Positions 45,755 to 56,291 of a stretch of 64,000 nucleotides of DNA are shown one piece after another (position 1 is the stretch's first letter; the number at the start of each line of letters is the position of its first letter). The notes under the pieces are model-generated. The model did not search any database. It saw only the letters and a list, made by a program, of their open reading frames with translations, and was not told where the DNA came from. The DNA lies in contig NZ_CP046525.1 in NCBI RefSeq assembly GCF_021497965.1, positions 1,178,001 to 1,242,000 on the forward strand, given 5' to 3'. The DNA is from Streptococcus infantis. Lineage in GTDB: Bacteria; Bacillota; Bacilli; Lactobacillales; Streptococcaceae. The translations under genes were made by a program, and so were the position numbers.

Positions 45755-47356
45755 TCACCCTTTAAAGTTTTTCAAAAACTCTTTGAGCTCGGCATCAGCT
45801 TCTGGTGTGGTTCCGTGGAGTTGACCGAGCATTTCAAGTAGAGAAGCTGTTTGGCTTTCGATCGCTTTATTAGTCTCATTAATCTTGCTGACGATTTCTG
45901 TCAGTGGCTCGACTTCTTCTTCCTCAAAGGTGTCTACATAACGAGGGATATTGAGATTGTAGTCATTTTCGACGATTTCTTCATAGCTTGCAAGATGAGC
46001 AAACTTATCCATCTCCTCACGAGACTTGTAGGCTTCCAGAATCTTCTCGATATGAGCATCCGTCATGATATTCTGGTTTTTACCCTTATCAAACTCCTTA
46101 GAAGCATCGATAAAGTAAACATCACGATTGGTACGGTTCTTCTTGAGAATGATGACCGTGGTCGGAATGCTGGTATTAAAGAAGATATTGGCAGGTAGAC
46201 CGATAACCGTATCAATGGCCCCTTCTTCTAATAAGGCCTTACGAATGGTTCCTTCCGCATTACCACGGAAGAGAACACCATGGGGAAGGACGATAGCCAT
46301 GACCCCATTATCCTGCTTGAGGTGGTAATATCCATGCAATAGAAAGGCAAAGTCAGCCTTGGACTGAGGCGCCAGTTTCCCAAAAGGAGAGAAACGAGGA
46401 TCATTCAGGAAGCCAGAGCTTGCTGACCACTTGGCAGAGTATGGAGGGTTCATGAGAACCCCATCAAAGTTGGTCGGTTCTTGTGTCGGCCAGTCTTCGT
46501 CTAGTGTATCAGCATTGTGGAGAAATTGATTCTCAACTGGAACACCGTGTAGAATCATGTTCATCCGAGCTAGGTTATAGGTCGAGGTATTGAGTTCCTG
46601 ACCAAAGTAGACCACCGTCTGCGGTTTGTGAGAGTATTTCTTGGCATTGAGCAAGAGAGAGCCAGAACCCATAGTCGCATCATAGAGGGTAAAACCTTGC
46701 TGATCTTCACGACCCAAAAAGGCAATCTGAGTCATGAGTTTGGCAACAGGCTGAGGTGTATAAAACTCACCAGCTTTCTTACCTGAGTCGGTCGCAAATT
46801 GACCGATCAGATACTCATAGGCATCCCCAAGCATATCACCAGCATGACCAGCCACATCTAGCACAGCCAACTCTTTCATGACCGCTGCTACCGTTTGGTT
46901 TTGCTTTTGCGGAGTAGCCCCTAGCTTTTTAGAGTAGAGGTCGATATCTTCAAAGAGATTTTCATAGAGGTCGTCACTCTGCTCGATATCACGAAAACCT
47001 TGAGCCAAGTCTTCCAACTGGAAAGTCCCTTCATTGACACGCGCTACCAGAGCCGTAAAGGTCAGGTCGGGCTTGATGATATAGTTGAGCTCATCATTCA
47101 TGACAGAGACTAGATCCTCATGGGTATCCGCATCCTCGTAGTAGTTGCGATAGACCTCAAGGGCATCCTCAAGACTATCTGTCCCCTCTTCCATGGTCTC
47201 CGCCACGAAAAAGAGCATCTTGTCTGACAGATACTTATAAAAGACCATGCCCAAAAGATAGGACTTGTAGTCGTTGGCATCCATCTTAGAGCGGAGAACA
47301 TCCGCTGAGTTCCACAGAGCTTGGTAGAGCGACTGGGAAGTTTGTGTTGTTTCCAT
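45755..47356 (-). CDS. hsdM: Type I restriction-modification DNA methyltransferase subunit HsdM
   Basis: A 533-residue N6-adenine methyltransferase. The N-terminal HsdM helical domain (LWNSADVLRSKMDANDYKSY) is followed by the SAM-binding motif YDATMGSGSLLLN and the catalytic motif MNPPYSAKW. The ATG at 47356 is chosen over the frame start at 47380 because the extension lacks an RBS. It lies downstream of hsdS and a HAD phosphatase gene rather than beside hsdR. Confidence 0.96.
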   Translation of the reverse strand: METTQTSQSLYQALWNSADVLRSKMDANDYKSYLLGMVFYKYLSDKMLFFVAETMEEGTDSLEDALEVYRNYYEDADTHEDLVSVMNDELNYIIKPDLTFTALVARVNEGTFQLEDLAQGFRDIEQSDDLYENLFEDIDLYSKKLGATPQKQNQTVAAVMKELAVLDVAGHAGDMLGDAYEYLIGQFATDSGKKAGEFYTPQPVAKLMTQIAFLGREDQQGFTLYDATMGSGSLLLNAKKYSHKPQTVVYFGQELNTSTYNLARMNMILHGVPVENQFLHNADTLDEDWPTQEPTNFDGVLMNPPYSAKWSASSGFLNDPRFSPFGKLAPQSKADFAFLLHGYYHLKQDNGVMAIVLPHGVLFRGNAEGTIRKALLEEGAIDTVIGLPANIFFNTSIPTTVIILKKNRTNRDVYFIDASKEFDKGKNQNIMTDAHIEKILEAYKSREEMDKFAHLASYEEIVENDYNLNIPRYVDTFEEEEVEPLTEIVSKINETNKAIESQTASLLEMLGQLHGTTPEADAELKEFLKNFKG

Positions 47357-47398
47357 AATGTTTCTTTCTAATTTTTGCAATTATTTTTAAACAAGCAA

Positions 47399-47542: not shown

Positions 47543-48457
47543 TTACCTTAGTTTTGGATTTCTTTTTCGCTTTCTTGAGTGTGCTTCAAGTTTATTAGCA
47601 TTTTTCTTGTTTTCTAATAGTTCATTATAAGCTGTCTTTTTAATAATCGTTTTGATTAGATTATCAAGTTCTGTATTTTCTGAGTAGTCAGCTGGAACAA
47701 AATAATCAATACGATTATCCTGAGTCATTTTGTGAACTTTCTTTCTGTCATTGGTTTTTGGATTGAATACACCGATAGAGTAGCCACCTCTTGTTTTGAC
47801 TAGCTTCATACATGGAATATCTGTATCACTATCCCCTAAATAGACCATATTTCTAAAAGGAACTCGTAAATCACTTTCAGCAACAAAATCGTTCACTGCA
47901 TCGTCATTGACATCTAAAATACCTTTGGTAATTCTAAAAAGAAATTGAGTCTTGTTGGTGTAGTTAACAACTTGAGCAGGCCAGACCGCGACACCCTTTT
48001 CATCACAATAAAAGGAAGTCGCATAAATTTTCTTAAAAGCACCATTTTTAGCTATTGAAGTCCCCTCTATCATTTCTTTCAAACCAGATGAAATAATATA
48101 GTGCTCAACAATAACTCCGTTTTCTTCACCGTACTTTCGAATGCGTTCAAACCAGCTTTCGACTCCTGGAAAAAGTTCAACCACTGAACCAAACTTGGCT
48201 AACTCTGTTTTTGTAAATAGGACTTTCCCTTCAGATTCTGTTTTCATCGTAAACATATAGGCAAGGTTCTTGTCCATATTATTAGCCTTGGCAAAACCAT
48301 TGGATTTCTTCCAAAATTCACTGATTTCATACCCAAGCTTCTGTATAAATCCTTGGGCTTGCATATCATCAGGAGACAGGGTTTTATCAAAATCATAGCA
48401 AATTGCTACTACAGGTTTTTGTTCTTTCTTTAGCGTTTCTGATTTTACTTTTGACAT
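47543..48457 (-). CDS. HAD-superfamily phosphatase within the type I R-M locus
   Basis: A 304-residue protein with HAD motif I DFDKT (22-26, nucleophile D22, acid D24), an SSGLKEM region at the motif II position, and motif IV GDSDTDIPCM. The end is very basic (KKNANKLEAHSRKRKRNPKL). It starts 15 bases after hsdS with RBS AAAAGGAGTG, so it is translated within the same operon. HAD proteins of this type are known near type I systems, but their role is not established. Substrate unknown. Confidence 0.85.
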   Translation of the reverse strand: MSKVKSETLKKEQKPVVAICYDFDKTLSPDDMQAQGFIQKLGYEISEFWKKSNGFAKANNMDKNLAYMFTMKTESEGKVLFTKTELAKFGSVVELFPGVESWFERIRKYGEENGVIVEHYIISSGLKEMIEGTSIAKNGAFKKIYATSFYCDEKGVAVWPAQVVNYTNKTQFLFRITKGILDVNDDAVNDFVAESDLRVPFRNMVYLGDSDTDIPCMKLVKTRGGYSIGVFNPKTNDRKKVHKMTQDNRIDYFVPADYSENTELDNLIKTIIKKTAYNELLENKKNANKLEAHSRKRKRNPKLR

Positions 48458-48472
48458 TTTACTGCACTCCTT

Positions 48473-49726
48473 TTATATAAACATATCCTGCAATAGTTTC
48501 TTCTTCAGTGTTTCTAGCTGAGAAATTTTTTCTTGGTGAGAGTTGATGAGATTATCTAGGTTTGAAAAATAGGCTCCGATGGCTTGTTGTTCTTCTAAAC
48601 AAGGAGCAAAAAACCTAAAATCTTGCATATCTGCTTGGAATAGATGAGGGATACTACTACCCGATACCTTTAGATAAATTAATTTTTGAAATACAGAACT
48701 TGTCAAAACCTGATAGAAAAAATGAGAAGAGACTTTCTTAGACAACCGTACTAACATCATTGTTGAATTAATAGTCGCTTTCCCTTTCAAATTCGAAACC
48801 AAAGCAGGATTTCCAAGAGATCCATCTTTTGAAAAAATGATATCTCCGTTCTCTAACATAATATCTGGAGATTCATCATATCTCCACTGTGGTATATGGT
48901 CGACTTCTCCCCAATCAATTACTCCATTTTTTATATGTTTACCAGCAATCATACTTGGTCCAACTTCAGTATATTCTTCTTGTTTTAGACTTTTCCAACC
49001 TAATCTTCCTTTAATTATTGCACAGTCACCTAATCTTATATTCTCCCACTCACCTTCAAATCCATCCAAACGAATCTCAGGAACTGTCTGTCCTGCTTTG
49101 GGAAACATCTTGGAGAGCATAATCGCCTTAAGAGATTGATAGTTGGCTAGATTGTCTTTGTAGCTCGCCAGAAGGTCATCGAGAGTATGGAAAAGGGAAC
49201 CTATGGCGGATTGTTCATCATAGGATGTCATGCCAATCTTCCACTCTCCATATTCTTTCCCATTAACCCCAGGTTGACCTGACCGTTGAGAAGTGATTTC
49301 AATAAATCGCTTATACTTATCGGTAAGCGTCTGTTGAAAAACAAAATTCCCATCATATGAATCATGTAATCTTGCCCTAATTAAGAATCCAGCATAATAG
49401 ACTTCACCATCTGATTCTCTATAAAGATATGTTTTGCCAACACTTGCACCAGTACGTGCGAATAGGAGGTCATTCTTCTGCAATTTATAGTTTTCATAGT
49501 CCTCTTCAGTAAAATTGACATCTGGAGAACTAAGTTTATCAGTTAAAAATAATCTAGAAGAATCATCTATATCTGTAATCCTAAGATATAGATGAATACC
49601 ATCAAAATCCTTTGCAGAAGCATTTAAACCATATTCGATAGAATTTGATATTTCATCAAGTGTTTTATAGTTCCACTTGTCATTAAAATTCATAAATCTA
49701 ATTTTGGGAATTTTAAAATTATTCAT
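48473..49726 (-). CDS. hsdS: Type I restriction-modification specificity subunit HsdS
   Basis: A 417-residue DNA-recognition subunit. Two target-recognition domains (about 8-165 and 210-375) are each followed by a conserved helical spacer (EQSAIGSLFHTLDDLLASYK and EQQAIGAYFSNLDNLINSHQ). The first recognition domain is more AT-rich than the second, a sign of domain exchange. The ATG at 49726 overlaps the stop of the DUF4062 gene by eight bases, so HsdS is made by translational coupling to the cassette upstream. No second hsdS or inverted repeat for phase switching was seen. Confidence 0.93.
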   Translation of the reverse strand: MNNFKIPKIRFMNFNDKWNYKTLDEISNSIEYGLNASAKDFDGIHLYLRITDIDDSSRLFLTDKLSSPDVNFTEEDYENYKLQKNDLLFARTGASVGKTYLYRESDGEVYYAGFLIRARLHDSYDGNFVFQQTLTDKYKRFIEITSQRSGQPGVNGKEYGEWKIGMTSYDEQSAIGSLFHTLDDLLASYKDNLANYQSLKAIMLSKMFPKAGQTVPEIRLDGFEGEWENIRLGDCAIIKGRLGWKSLKQEEYTEVGPSMIAGKHIKNGVIDWGEVDHIPQWRYDESPDIMLENGDIIFSKDGSLGNPALVSNLKGKATINSTMMLVRLSKKVSSHFFYQVLTSSVFQKLIYLKVSGSSIPHLFQADMQDFRFFAPCLEEQQAIGAYFSNLDNLINSHQEKISQLETLKKKLLQDMFI

Positions 49727-52409
49727 TAGAATTTTCCATTCTATATTCATTTGCATACTTAATTACTAAATAGTGATTATCTAATCTTGCCTTCTCTATA
49801 ATATATTCTTTGTAATCACCATTTGAACTAATTTTATCTATATTTTTTACAATAACTAGCTTTATATCAGAGTTAGAATTATCCATCATATTCGATAGTT
49901 GATTTAATATAATCTGATTAACTATTTCATATTTAGTTAGTTTAATCAACAAATCTGTTGCATTCATCTTAATATTTCTAGAATAATGTTTGGTCATGTT
50001 TAAACAAAAATAAGTACAAAACATAATAAATTCACCATTTGGAGAGAATTTATCAAACTCGAAGATTGTTTGCAAAAATGATATTACTCTCTTAATTTCA
50101 AATATATTTTCAACAGATAGTTTGAGTATATCGTTAATAACAAGATTATAATTACCATCAAAAATACTTTTCATTACATTCAGTTGAATAGATAAAATAA
50201 TTGGATTTTCGTCAATTAAATCACTATGTACTAGTAATGTATTTTTACTTGATTGAAATACATCTGCTAGTTTTTCCCAATTATAGTGATGAGTCTGAGA
50301 AAAATAGATTTGAAATAAAAGGTTAAATGAAGAATATTTATCACTTAATATTTGATTATCTGAAATAATAGTCTGCTTACAAACGTCAATAAGTCTATTA
50401 AAAATTTCTTCAGATAATTTTACATTATCTATCTTAATAATATTAAATATTGTTTGGAAATTATTTACTGACGAAAACGTAAATATCCCATTTTCTCCTT
50501 GAGTTCTATTATAACTGATTATATCCTCAATATATTTATCAATATATTTTTCAGGAACAGTATTGTGTTCCAATTCAAGATTGATTTTCTGCATTAATAC
50601 AGAATTATTCTCTTCAATATATCTTAATAAATTGGTATTATCAATAGAAGAATTTCTTATATAATTTATCAAAGCATTACTATAACTTCCATATGCATCT
50701 AATTGATATTCATTATTTTGAAATATAAAATAATTTCCAACTTTTTTCTGAGTTTGGTTTGTTAGCCAACGATAGTCCATTCTACATAATAGAGAAAATG
50801 CGCTATCATAAAACCGAATTAGTTTTTTTTCAAAAATTATGTTTAAGATTACAATAGTATCTTCATAATTAAAACGTGTTATTACTTTTTTTAAAGCATC
50901 AAAAATTGGCTTTTCCAAATTCAACTCGCGATTATCTTGATTCAACCATTTTATGACCTCTCCTTTAAATTCCATAAGAAACGAAACAATTATAGAATCA
51001 TTTATATAATCTGAAAAATGATGTAACAAGTAACATTGAGAACGCAAACGATTATTAAAAAAATCAATATTACGAATCAATCCTATAGTATACTCAATCT
51101 CTTCTGAACTAATGGTTCCTATTATCTGTTTAGATTTAAGCAAGAAATTCGCTAGTTCTTTGTCCGAAGAAGTTACTGCTAAGACAAATAATTCTTTTTT
51201 AAATTCATAACCATCATACATTTCGGCAAGTGTTCTTAATAGCACTTTCATCAAATTTTTTGCATGTTGTATATGAGTAATAGAGGCATAACCTAATGAT
51301 AATACAAATGATTCCGATATCCATTGAAATAGTCCAATATTACATAGATTATAACTCTTTACAGATTCTGAATATAAATTATCTGCTTGAAATTTGTCTA
51401 TTTGCTCAAAAAACATTTTCTCTCTTCTATCTAACAATGGAAAGTAAAGAGGCTCTTTTGATTTATTTATATATTCCTGACCTGTATTTAAAATTGGCCA
51501 TCTATTTTCATAATTCCCTTTCTCATTTTGAACATTTCTTAAATCTATTGCTATATTGTTAACTATCCATTTTGGAATATTTACATCGTCAGTTGCTTTC
51601 ACTAAACTATCAGATAGAATGGATATTGCACCATTTAGATCACCCCTAAAATATAGTTTTAAAGCATTGAATCTTTGAGTTAGGATTTCTTTTAATTCCT
51701 CTTCAGTTTTTGAAACAAAATACTCCTCTAGAATATCAAAATTAATTTCTAAGAATTTATGTTTATTAAAAACAAATTGGAAAAACTTTATTATCTCCTG
51801 CTCAATGTTTGATATTTTATTTTCATCTTGTGATAAGTTCAACTGAAACACTTTGAAAAGATATTCACATAAAACTTTTGATTCTTTTGAAATATCAAGA
51901 ATTGTTGAAGAATACTTATCTGTATTGATGTCAGAAATTTTGTAATCAACAGTATCACTATTTTTATTACGATAATAAAAAATAATATCTCCAACAATTG
52001 ATTCAATTACTTTTTCAGGGATCTGATCAAACACGGGTATTTCTGAAAATTTTACTTTGGCATAAAGATCTTCCTGTAATTGAGTCTTTTCACTAGAATT
52101 TTCAGTACAAAAGAAATATAAACATTTTTTATTATGCTTCTTTGCAGTGTCAATTTCCTTCAAAACCGAAGGACTGATTCCATCTTCATTATCAATGATA
52201 ATCAAGCATACATCACAAGACTTTACATGATTTACATAAAATTCCTCCGATTTAACACTGCGACTTCCCTCTTCTTCATAACAAATTGAATTCATTAAAG
52301 GCGAATCATTAATGAGTTTAGAGAGTCTTTTACGCATCTTTCTATACTTCCCATCGCATTTAGAACTAATAAAAACTATAATCGGATCTTTTACCTTATT
52401 CGTACTCAT
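49719..52409 (-). CDS. DUF4062 (TIR-like) protein with long helical-repeat tail; putative anti-phage sensor
   Basis: An 896-residue soluble protein. Residues about 8-125 match DUF4062: a first strand with the PIIVFISSKCDG motif, then KSCDVCLIIIDNEDGISPSV and LKEIDTAKKHNKKCLYFF. E85 (SPSVLKEID) occupies the place of the catalytic glutamate of TIR domains. The remainder (about 160-896) is almost all helix, rich in Asn, Ile and Asp, like HEAT/ARM or TPR repeats, with no P-loop or nuclease motif. It starts 12 bases after the macro-domain gene with RBS AGGTGAG. The cassette is clearly more AT-rich than the flanking hsd genes, suggesting recent transfer. An anti-phage role is inferred from domain type and context. 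Confidence 0.75.
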   Translation of the reverse strand: MSTNKVKDPIIVFISSKCDGKYRKMRKRLSKLINDSPLMNSICYEEEGSRSVKSEEFYVNHVKSCDVCLIIIDNEDGISPSVLKEIDTAKKHNKKCLYFFCTENSSEKTQLQEDLYAKVKFSEIPVFDQIPEKVIESIVGDIIFYYRNKNSDTVDYKISDINTDKYSSTILDISKESKVLCEYLFKVFQLNLSQDENKISNIEQEIIKFFQFVFNKHKFLEINFDILEEYFVSKTEEELKEILTQRFNALKLYFRGDLNGAISILSDSLVKATDDVNIPKWIVNNIAIDLRNVQNEKGNYENRWPILNTGQEYINKSKEPLYFPLLDRREKMFFEQIDKFQADNLYSESVKSYNLCNIGLFQWISESFVLSLGYASITHIQHAKNLMKVLLRTLAEMYDGYEFKKELFVLAVTSSDKELANFLLKSKQIIGTISSEEIEYTIGLIRNIDFFNNRLRSQCYLLHHFSDYINDSIIVSFLMEFKGEVIKWLNQDNRELNLEKPIFDALKKVITRFNYEDTIVILNIIFEKKLIRFYDSAFSLLCRMDYRWLTNQTQKKVGNYFIFQNNEYQLDAYGSYSNALINYIRNSSIDNTNLLRYIEENNSVLMQKINLELEHNTVPEKYIDKYIEDIISYNRTQGENGIFTFSSVNNFQTIFNIIKIDNVKLSEEIFNRLIDVCKQTIISDNQILSDKYSSFNLLFQIYFSQTHHYNWEKLADVFQSSKNTLLVHSDLIDENPIILSIQLNVMKSIFDGNYNLVINDILKLSVENIFEIKRVISFLQTIFEFDKFSPNGEFIMFCTYFCLNMTKHYSRNIKMNATDLLIKLTKYEIVNQIILNQLSNMMDNSNSDIKLVIVKNIDKISSNGDYKEYIIEKARLDNHYLVIKYANEYRMENSNE

Positions 52410-52421
52410 CTCTCACCTAAA

Positions 52422-53273
52422 TTATAATATAGAAATTGTATCTCCATCTTCCTTTCGGATTACGATTTCGACATCAGATGTTAATTTTGTTTTACGTAGC
52501 ATGAAGTATTTAACCATAAATTCTAATTGTTGCTGATGATTATAATTTAGTTTTGACAAACCAGAACCAATCAAGGGTAGATATATTGGATTACCATTAG
52601 AATTCCTAAAACAATTATCAACTATTGCATTCAAAACTATAAGATAGTCTTGATCACTAGTTTTAGCATTCTTATTATTTTCTATAATAGATAATGCTAT
52701 AAAATGATATCTAACGTTACCAATATCCACAAAAGCAGTACTTCCGATAGGGTACCTTTTATAATTTCCTACTGATTTTCCACCTTGTTTTACATCATTA
52801 CTAATATTTACTGATGATATACTCTGTTCTTTCAAACTACGCTTAATCTTCTTATCGAGATCCAACTGTGATACTAAATTATTATCGTATAAAAAATTAA
52901 TAACTTGCCCATGAAGTGAATTGGCAGAAATAACTGAATCATCTATTTCGGTATCAAAACAACTATTTACAGGAACTATTAAATTAACTCTACTAGCGCC
53001 AATGTAATCTAGTATATTTCCATATGTTCCTGAAACTACAAACCTATTATATTTAAAATATATTACTCTCCTTTTGAAATAGCAATATAAAAATGCACAA
53101 ACGAAGCTTAAGGCATATAATATAATTAAAGTTTTTATAACTTTAATTATATGGCTTATTAGATTATTACTTTCATAAATATCACTGATATTTATAAAAG
53201 TCGCCAATAATGATAACAAGGATAAAAAACTAAAAAAATACTTGTACGATAATTTAAATGATTTTTTTATCAA
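52422..53273 (-). CDS. Two-helix membrane protein with macro-like domain (type II Thoeris ThsA-like)
   Basis: A 283-residue protein with membrane helices at about 12-29 and 44-66, then a cytosolic domain (about 74-283) with macro-domain hallmarks: VNLIVPVNSCFDTE with SANSLHGQV (first ligand loop) and IYLPLIGSGLSKL (second loop). The 2TM-macro layout is that of ThsA in type II Thoeris, where an ADP-ribose-type signal opens a membrane-damaging effector. The start is TTG at 53273; no ATG is available, and GGAGAAGGG lies upstream. The frame is the same as that of hsdR and begins eight codons after its stop. Very AT-rich. Confidence 0.78.
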   Translation of the reverse strand: MIKKSFKLSYKYFFSFLSLLSLLATFINISDIYESNNLISHIIKVIKTLIILYALSFVCAFLYCYFKRRVIYFKYNRFVVSGTYGNILDYIGASRVNLIVPVNSCFDTEIDDSVISANSLHGQVINFLYDNNLVSQLDLDKKIKRSLKEQSISSVNISNDVKQGGKSVGNYKRYPIGSTAFVDIGNVRYHFIALSIIENNKNAKTSDQDYLIVLNAIVDNCFRNSNGNPIYLPLIGSGLSKLNYNHQQQLEFMVKYFMLRKTKLTSDVEIVIRKEDGDTISIL

Positions 53274-53294
53274 ATGTATTTTACTTCCCTTCTC

Positions 53295-56291
53295 CTATCT
53301 CCCCACTCTGAGTGGCTCAATCACTTCTTCTATCAGTTGGGTATAGGCTTCTTTGATTTGTTTTTTATAGAGGAGTGGGTTGAGGGCATCTGTCACCTCA
53401 ACTTTATAGTCCTTGTAGCGCTGACTCTTGGTCAGTTGGCTTTCTCCTAGTTGTTTTTTAGCACCCTTGCGGTAGTGATTGACATAGTAGCGGAGTTCAT
53501 CTTCACCCACATACCAGGTCTTACTAAAGTCTTGGATATGTTGCTGGATGACTGCTTCAATCATCTGGTCAAGGATATTGGCGATGGATTGACCTCTGTA
53601 GCGGTCAGGATTTGCCTGTACTTCTTGCCAAAGTTCTGAGATGATCTGCGCAAGATTTGGATTGGTCTTCTCCAGACTCTGGATATAAGTATCCACTGCT
53701 TCTCTGTCTTGTGCGCTGAGACTCTTTTCCGGACTCTGCTCTTGCTCGATCAGGCTTTGAATCAAGGTCAGGATATAGGCGTAGTTAATCTCATCGACTT
53801 GGATAGACTCTAGTTCGTAGTGGATATCAAAAGGTCCATCATCGTCACCGCTAGTCCCTTCTCCATCACGAGCTTTGAGTTCAGCAAGGATGTTTTTGTA
53901 GAGACCTAGATAGGCTTCGAGCAATTCATCATTTAAACCTGTTTCTTGGTAAATCTCAGCTTCATCATACTCCTTGTATACTCGGATAGAAGCTAGGTAC
54001 TTATCAAACCCTTGATAGGCCTTGGCGATTTTCCTCAACTGAGGTGTAGAGATTTGTTCCAGTTGGAGTCCTTCGACGGGATCATCAGTAATGAGATTTT
54101 GGAAGTCACTACAACTTCTCAAAAAGTTTCTCTTTTCTTCCTCCCAGCTAGGTGCTAGGACATCATTTTCTCCACCATTTGAGTAGAGCTTGAGGGCATT
54201 ATCCACTGCTTCCTTAAAGGCTATAGGCTTTTGGAAAGTGATGATATGCCCATAGGTCTTACTAAAATCAAAGATGCGATTAGTTCGACTAAAAGCTTGG
54301 ATCAAGTCCTGCGGTTGCATTGGTTTACGATCGATAAAGAGGGTCGATAAACAAGGGGCATCAAATCCAGTTAAGAGACGATTGACCACGATAACCAAGT
54401 CCAACTGCTCATTGCGATAGAGATACTTGTCTTGCTTACGGGCAAGGCGGTTATTGACATCGGTATTAAAGCCACGAAGATCCGCCATAGTAAAGTGAGT
54501 ATCAAACTCTTGGTTATAGTCCGCTAAGACCTGTTTCATGTGGTCTTGGTTGGCTCTTGAGTCTTCTTCATTTTCAGTGACAGAGTAGGTGATGGTAAAT
54601 TTCGGAAAGTCTGGAAGGACCATCTTGACTCTCTCAGATACCTCGACACGTGTCTGACCAGCCTTGACTCTTTTAAGAAGGTCATAGTAGGCTTGGGCTT
54701 GAGGGATGGACTTGACGGTTAGAATTGCATTGTAGGTATTGCCCACACCTTTTTGGAAGCCAAGTTGTTGGCGCGATTTATTGATAATGGCATCCAAGAC
54801 TTCCAGCATGTGCTCCTCATTCTCGTAGACGGTATCTGGTATTTCATTTTCATTCTGATCTGTGATGAGAGTATTGCGATAATCCACCTTAAAGCCTAAA
54901 ACAGCTCCATCATGGATGGCCTCCTTGACCGTATACTCATGGAGACGGTCACCATACTGTTGTTGGGTGGTTTGGGCTAGGTCTCCGACTTGCTGGCGTT
55001 TATTTTCCTTAAAGATAGGTGTCCCTGTAAATCCATACCAGAGGGACTGTGGGAAAAAGGCCTTAATATCTTTTTGTGTTTGTGGAGTCACGGCACGGTG
55101 GCATTCATCCACGACAAAGGCCACTCGGAGTCCCTTGATTTTGTCCGCATCTCGTTGGTAAAGACCTTGGTCAAACTTGCGCATCATGGTGGTGATTTTC
55201 TGGATGGTTGTCACCACCACACGCTTATCGTTACTGCCTAAGCGCTTAACCAAATCATGTGTATTGTCCGTCTCATCGATATCAATGACATCATTGGTCG
55301 CATACGAGAGGAAGGATGATGTGGTCTGTTGGTCCAAGTCCCTACGGTCAACGACAAAAATCGTCTTTTGAATAGATGGAATCTGAAGGAGATTCCTCGC
55401 TACCTTATAAGAAGTCAAGGTTTTCCCTGAACCTGTTGTATGCCAGACATAGCCTGATGCTTGCTGGCGAGAGGCTTCTTGCACTGCTTCGATGGCATGG
55501 ATCTGATAGGGGCGCAAGAGGATGAGAGATTTCTTGCTATCATCAATGACCGAATACTGCATGACCATCTGATGCGCACGAGGGATAGAAAGGACTTCGT
55601 GGGCAAAGCTAGTCAGGTTTGTCACAGGATGATTGTCCTTATCCACCCACTTGGTTAGAAATTGCTTGTTGAGTTTATTTTCACGAGCTGCTGCGATATA
55701 GCGAGTATCGACCTTGTTGGTCACAACAAACATCTGCAAGCTAGAGTAGATTCCACGGAATTTCCCTTCACGGTCATATTTTTTTATCTGATGAAAGGCA
55801 TCGATAAATGCCGCTTGGGAGCTCTTGAGCTCGATTTGAATCATGGGTAAGCCATTGATGAGGAGGGTAACATCCAGTCTACGGTCTTGGTCCAGAGGAT
55901 TTACTTTTTCTCGTTGGACTTGATTGACAACTTCGTAGCTAGACTTTCCTGCTGCGATATTGTCACGCCAGATGACTGACAAACGGATGGTGCCTAGACT
56001 TGCATCTTCTCTTTGTACCTCGACTTTGGCAATGCCATTTTCTCCGACCAACCACTTGGCAGCGTCATAGTAGCTAACAAAGTTGAGTTGGTTCTGAATC
56101 TGGCGTTTTTCCTGCTCAGTTAAGGGATGGTCTGCTAGCAGAGCAACGTTGTTTTGGGCTAGTTTCTCAAAGAAATTGTCCCATAGTTGTTCTTCTGTTT
56201 TTAGGTCTTCTCTATAAGTCCATTGGCTTTCACCAGTTACCAGCTGGTTAATCAGTTGTTTTTCTATTTCCAGTTCTGGTTTTACGTGCAT
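53295..56291 (-). CDS. hsdR: Type I restriction enzyme R subunit HsdR
   Basis: A 998-residue restriction and translocation subunit. The N-terminal nuclease has the PD-(D/E)xK pattern ([20 protein letters not shown], with D, E and K in place). A SF2 motor follows with TTGSGKT, the DECH box (FVVDECHRA), TGTP and the motif VI region QAFSRTNRI. The C-terminal domain binds the methylase core. First gene of a run that continues into the macro/DUF4062 cassette and hsdS. Confidence 0.96.

Follow-up and report, generated by a model that had tools for sequence, protein, structure and literature searches.

A TM-macro ThsA effector paired with a large DUF4062 protein inside a type I restriction-modification operon of Streptococcus infantis

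The pair and the closest described systems

In type II Thoeris, the TM-macro effector ThsA adjoins a TIR-type partner, ThsB. ThsA of this kind is reported to bind ADP-ribose and imidazole adenine dinucleotide and to oligomerise when bound, with membrane damage suspected as the outcome; one ThsB of such a system is described as making ADP-ribose (PMC11204291), and His-ADPR is given as the signal in another Thoeris system (PMC11204291, PMC12847820). Recognition of DUF4062 as an immune domain that depletes NAD+ dates only from a 2026 preprint, where DUF4062 proteins are described as TIR-like NADases under the name Swarozyc (PMC13174449). According to that preprint, KpSwz is triggered by a phage portal protein and yields ADP-ribose and nicotinamide, depending on a Glu; the domain is also found in the human vault protein TEP1 and, in the words of its discussion, some DUF4062 genes lie in operons with diverse enzymes (PMC13174449). 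Here we describe a locus that joins these two known kinds of protein in a new combination. It lies in a stretch of 64,000 nucleotides (nt) of the one-contig, 1.7-Mb genome of S. infantis (the window; positions are those of the whole stretch), where a gene for a TM-macro ThsA and a gene for a DUF4062 protein of 896 amino acids (aa) are embedded in a type I restriction-modification (RM) operon.

We consider it rather likely, although well short of certain, that the two genes constitute an abortive-infection system in which the DUF4062 protein senses phage and signals to ThsA. We infer that defence would start with the helical tail of the DUF4062 protein recognising a phage product, and that clustering would then activate its TIR-like NADase domain (with E85 as the putative catalytic residue), which would convert NAD+ to ADP-ribose or an ADP-ribose conjugate. 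This nucleotide would be bound by the macro domain of ThsA, which would oligomerise, disrupt the membrane and kill the infected cell. If true, DUF4062 would gain two modes, executioner and messenger maker, like TIR domains, and a new signal molecule would become directly testable.

A sequence-only reading of this DNA had called the pair type II Thoeris-like, a description that holds in part. The effector is of the same family, matching PF20016, with two hydrophobic segments and with most, though not all, of the macro-site positions checked retained; a partner predicted to be TIR-like adjoins ThsA, and the ThsA-ThsB pairs of L029-L034 also adjoin open reading frames (ORFs) that, by their starts, resemble hsd genes. 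However, the genome has no ThsB_TIR or TIR_2 match, and the partner is a ~900-aa DUF4062 protein with a helical tail. Moreover, the window ThsA falls in a separate tree group and carries His at the position of N114 of E. coli ThsA, and a strand motif that by eye reads Y-x-A in ThsB is F-x-S here. Since the ThsB of type II Thoeris is lacking, we do not file the pair there. With Swarozyc it shares an N-terminal DUF4062 domain, whose invariant Glu may correspond to the conserved one, a large C-terminal region that might be a sensor, and a setting amid defence genes. KpSwz is nevertheless described as a single-gene system whose winged-helix auxiliary domain binds the portal (PMC13174449), whereas here the tail consists of ~700 aa of predicted helices and each of the four genomes seen has the gene next to ThsA; lacking the single-gene, winged-helix architecture, the pair is not filed as Swarozyc either. 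By analogy, its mode of action is probably that of a type II Thoeris whose enzyme is of the Swarozyc type.

Two further systems resemble it in part. TgvAB of V. cholerae likewise consists of two defence genes embedded in an hsd operon, but is described as a modification-dependent restriction system, and the window proteins are unrelated to it in kind (PMC11411939). SpbK combines a sensor and a TIR NADase in a single chain that clusters on a phage structural protein, the portal, but its TIR domain is canonical rather than DUF4062 and it is described without a linked TM-macro effector (PMC12847820). We could not find any described defence system matching the ThsA-DUF4062 pair in the literature searched, as the sequence-only reading had supposed, although supplements lay outside this search and the pair may appear in Figure S1 of PMC13174449.

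The effector is clearly a TM-macro ThsA by sequence. It matches PF20016 (E=1.3e-37) and the PADLOC ThsA (E=1.2e-44), its profile matches solved ThsA macro domains in the PDB (E=3.9e-29), its macro domain spans residues 84-273, and hydropathy reveals two hydrophobic segments at residues 12-30 and 45-63. The ThsA of S. gordonii (P0054, P0060) is 87% identical to it and lies on a contig of 2,222,706 bases, a length recorded for none of the 46 DUF4062 proteins from the database searches.

A genome-wide search of the S. infantis genome (G000) and of G263, a diverged Streptococcus genome with the pair, gave no match to ThsB_TIR (PF08937) or TIR_2 (PF13676), while positive controls were recovered (ThsB_TIR in G244, G196 and G595; TIR_2 in G244 and G148). 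This absence is strong but not absolute, because the two genomes are 93% and 94% complete, respectively. On this lack of any match we reject a ThsB encoded elsewhere in the S. infantis genome as the source of the signal; in G148, the two TIR_2 genes lie on contigs other than that of the pair. The simplest reading, by analogy with Thoeris, is that the DUF4062 protein would stand in for ThsB.

Genomic partners of ThsA and DUF4062

PF20016 is present in 10 of 284 Streptococcus genomes; of 398 genomes sampled across the class, 12 have it, 11 with a score above the cut-off. PF13271, the DUF4062 family, is present in 9 (8 over the cut-off) and 50 (48 over the cut-off) of the same two sets. The ~900-aa DUF4062 family adjoins ThsA in all four genomes where it was found: that of the window, that of a close relative in the same genus (S. 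pseudopneumoniae, G148), that of a diverged Streptococcus (G263, 34% identity of the full-length protein by BLASTP) and that of a member of another family of the class (G595, 23-24%). The supposed partnership of the two genes therefore extends over three diverged lineages, which rules out a coincidence of one genome. Moreover, the pair stands by itself in G263, between a methyltransferase gene and ylbM, with 10 nt between ThsA and the DUF4062 gene. As this insert consists of just the two genes between housekeeping genes, the pair is a unit, and its dependence on an RM system is ruled out.

At the same junction in eight other Streptococcus genomes, the methyltransferase gene and ylbM are 9 nt apart in four (L132, L135, L138, L139) and enclose one other ORF of 83-399 aa in the other four (L133, L134, L136, L137), namely a 399-aa ORF in G196 (L137 281-1480) and small ORFs in three. 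This junction may represent a second exchange site.

G595 has the gene order ThsA, ThsB (PF08937, E=1e-15) and a 925-aa DUF4062 protein. The DUF4062 protein thus accompanies a complete Thoeris in G595 and has ThsA as its sole companion in Streptococcus, and the two arrangements together suggest how a sensor could be added or exchanged while the effector is kept. Tenacibaculum pelagium (L027 9836-12288) encodes a canonical DUF4062 protein (325 aa, 65 bits) in a row with ThsA and ThsB, ~90 nt after the latter. In P0083, ThsA continues in frame into the C-terminal region of the DUF4062 protein, which looks like the outcome of a deletion between adjacent genes.

Seen from the effector, partners are diverse. 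Thirteen Actinobacterial ThsA loci were read from ORF starts alone. Among the 21 ThsA neighbourhoods read (20 loci and the window), ThsA is accompanied by the ~900-aa DUF4062 protein in four, and by ThsB without DUF4062 in eight (L029-L034, L089, L090; four Pfam-tested, the rest assigned by near-identical starts). It lies next to a reverse transcriptase in one (L037) and with a large SMC/ABC-type ATPase in three (L091 tested; L093 and L094 by similar ORFs), and has no clear partner, or is truncated or weak, in five (L035, L092, L095, L096, L097). At L037 (6950-10363), a 236-aa PF20016 macro protein directly follows the 897-aa reverse transcriptase gene, and macro effectors may serve reverse transcriptase-based defence too. 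At L091 (3022-9005), the neighbours of a ThsA_Macro gene encode an SMC/ABC-type ATPase of 1119 aa and a protein of ~590 aa, an arrangement also seen at L093 and L094, and a weak, below-cut-off MComp1 match hints at an ABC three-component system.

Database searches retrieved 46 DUF4062 proteins of this kind; a third protein search returned the same 46 but, being word-based, may miss distant members. The neighbours of P0002-P0046 lie outside the comparison, except for P0083 and a link between P0087 and P0040. We found no match to the 896-aa protein in the plasmids or phages searched, and nothing in the plasmids searched for its G595 and G263 relatives. A search of IMG/VR with alignment A4, which includes these two relatives, gave 78 pattern matches and no relatives, and among 198 genomes from the order to which G595 belongs, the same search recovered only G595 itself.

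This distribution also bears on whether the DUF4062 protein might itself be the executioner, killing by NAD+ drain, with ThsA as an auxiliary reader of ADP-ribose or a regulatory component. KpSwz is reported to need no second gene and to act through NAD+ depletion (PMC13174449), and the class sample contains 58 DUF4062 matches, of which 55 lie away from a PF20016 match or in genomes without one (among them a 1488-aa ORF in G386, left out of the comparison). However, ThsA is adjacent in every genome found with the ~900-aa family and the G263 insert holds both genes, whereas some lineages should have shed ThsA if NAD+ loss sufficed; we thus regard this alternative as unlikely.

The DUF4062 domain and the ThsA ligand site

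The DUF4062 protein comprises a DUF4062 domain predicted to be TIR-like (residues ~8-150) and a region predicted to be all-helical (~160-896). Its match to PF13271 is marginal (25.2 bits against a cut-off of 24.7), and as it covers residues 12-75 only, it stops before E85; the G263 and G595 relatives, as whole proteins, fall below the cut-off. A profile of 25 canonical DUF4062 domains gave an hhalign match (Prob 90.5, E=1.4e-6, residues 6-72). This profile represents the 25 of 38 loci whose start was found by motif search and is without six short Streptococcus DUF4062 loci (there are seven other short Streptococcus matches, one of them unlisted).

The earlier proposal placed E85 at the catalytic position of a TIR-like domain. 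E85 is present in 45 of 45 proteins (P0001, the window protein, to P0045, all at least 74% identical; P0046 lacks that part and is not counted), and is also invariant in alignment A4 with the 34%- and 24%-identical relatives. The N-terminal domain is predicted, with modest confidence, to adopt a TIR/deoxyribosyltransferase-type fold. However, E85 comes to face the conserved Glu of the canonical DUF4062 profile only if extension is imposed on the alignment, and in a MAFFT alignment with two canonical DUF4062 proteins (A6, not used for the model) the two are not lined up. The structure prediction also yielded the expected helical tail, ~700 aa modelled as helices, but only residues ~400-840 are well modelled and residues 140-400 have pLDDT below 50. 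With the full-length model, Foldseek returned only HEAT/ARM-type matches, all of them weak and short of E<=0.001, and the search for a solved structure by sequence returned one chance-level match (E=0.91).

The domain carries the family strand motif F-x-S (F13, S15), which we compared by eye with the Y-x-A that starts ThsB; the equivalence of the positions is deduced from alignment ranges rather than from a residue alignment. F13 and S15 were also compared with strand residues of NDT and SARM1 that we take to correspond. From these motifs, F13 seems to replace the active-site Tyr of ThsB, as in NAD-cleaving TIRs. ThsB subfamilies with the active-site Tyr are reported to occur only with TM-macro ThsA (PMC11204291).

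On the receptor side, the ligand-site residues given for E. coli ThsA are D100, L113, N114, S175, S217, G218, T220, H259, K262 and D83 (PMC11204291). Five are kept in the window ThsA (D100/D107, L113/L120, S175/S195, S217/S237 and G218/G238), T220 is replaced by S240, three positions are changed (N114 to H121, H259 to R273 and K262 to D276), and D83 falls outside the alignment. The position of N114 is also His in the ThsA of G263, P0085, P0087, P0088, P0090 and P0094, Gln in P0096, and Asn in G244 and G595. The ThsB-paired L099 has His here too, so this residue is not confined to DUF4062-paired ThsA.

A tree built from 18 ThsA proteins clusters the five that carry the DUF4062-only label, with support 89/82, below the star level of the tool, two of these labels being indirect (P0083, from the fusion, and P0087, whose longest contig equals that of P0040 in length). 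A seven-row ThsB group that includes G595 is separate from this cluster, L099 is a weakly placed neighbour of it, and the Tenacibaculum ThsA lies elsewhere.

The changed ThsA site and F13 may indicate a signal different from those known. More specifically, and as a tentative suggestion, the pair might define a distinct class of TM-macro signalling in which DUF4062, instead of ThsB, makes a nucleotide other than His-ADPR, enzyme and receptor having changed together. This would rest on the F-type strand motif of the enzyme and on the His, Arg and Asp at three ligand-lining positions of ThsA. Against it, His is also found in L099, and a joint change is not established.

The three changed positions, along with the marginal DUF4062 score, would also fit a non-catalytic TIR-like domain, the DUF4062 protein opening or clustering ThsA by contact. 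We hold this very unlikely, since E85 is invariant among the 45 similar proteins and in the G263 and G595 relatives, and most macro-site positions checked are retained.

The operon and the slot after hsdR

On the minus strand, the gene order is an 885-aa helicase gene, hsdR, ThsA, the DUF4062 gene, hsdS, a PDC-S34 HAD gene and hsdM (Table 1). The sequence-only reading had described a 2TM-macro gene and an 896-residue DUF4062 gene lying 12 nt apart between hsdR and hsdS; both ORFs are intact, and family matches identify the RM genes on either side. ThsA follows the hsdR stop by 21 nt, and the DUF4062 ATG, 12 nt after ThsA, is preceded by an AGGTGAG motif. For hsdS, the ATG at 49726 is a likelier start than the listed one and creates an 8-nt overlap with the DUF4062 stop, in agreement with the proposed coupling to hsdS. 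This spacing from hsdR to hsdS amounts to an operon-like packing. The AT-richness noted earlier also holds, the pair having 25.9% GC against 40.5% for the whole window.

Table 1. Features of the RM operon and the embedded genes (window positions)
Feature	Position	Strand	Basis
ThsA-like effector, 283 aa, TTG start	52422..53273	-	Intact ORF; PF20016, PADLOC, PDB profile, hydropathy
DUF4062 protein, candidate sensor/enzyme, 896 aa, ATG start	49719..52409	-	Intact ORF; PF13271, profile match, models
E85 codon, proposed catalytic Glu	52155..52157	-	Invariance in homologues; extended profile alignment
hsdR, upstream of the pair	53295..56291	-	PF18766, PF04313 and others; PADLOC REase_I
hsdS, downstream of the pair	48473..49756 (as listed)	-	PF01420; PADLOC Specificity_I
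PDC-S34 HAD-like candidate defence gene, between hsdS and hsdM	47543..48457	-	PADLOC PDC-S34 E=2.6e-159; PF12710
hsdM	45755..47380	-	PF02384 E=9.1e-107

We found 71 hsdR matches in 65 of 177 Streptococcus genomes and retrieved the best 30 (80-100% identity; L100-L129). Directly after hsdR, two of these loci carry ThsA-DUF4062, eight have no cassette and 20 have another gene; 11 of the 20 were family-tested and the rest placed by similar starts. The families comprise AbiH, PDC-S06 (AAA_13), SIR2, DRT2, AbiP2, DUF4297, SocA/Panacea, GmrSD_C/HEC-06-like and an AAA ATPase, and seven of ten slot proteins tested against PADLOC matched defence families. The position after hsdR (53274-53294 in the window) is therefore a hotspot where defence genes are exchanged, and a ready place to seek further units like the present pair. 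That type I RM operons can harbour defence genes is known from TgvAB (PMC11411939). The slot genes of L102 (L102:1-1446) and L108 (L108:251-1465) had no Pfam or PADLOC match and are candidates for undescribed defence genes.

A slot that gathers so many unrelated genes, several of them defensive, could have brought together ThsA and the DUF4062 gene as two independent defence genes. This is highly improbable, as G263 and G595 have the two side by side at sites other than this slot, their spacing is tight both here (12 nt) and in G263 (10 nt), and ThsA groups by partner in the tree. The overlap between the DUF4062 stop and the likely hsdS start might in turn suggest an accessory role in regulating the RM system of the host, for instance hsdS expression. 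However, no ORF beside the pair in G263 or G595 resembles an RM gene, as judged from ORF starts, and unrelated genes occupy the same slot in other Streptococcus, which makes the probability of such a role close to negligible.

The PDC-S34 HAD gene between hsdS and hsdM, which the sequence-only reading did not list, is a second gene embedded in the RM operon, which we do not regard as a component of the ThsA-DUF4062 pair.
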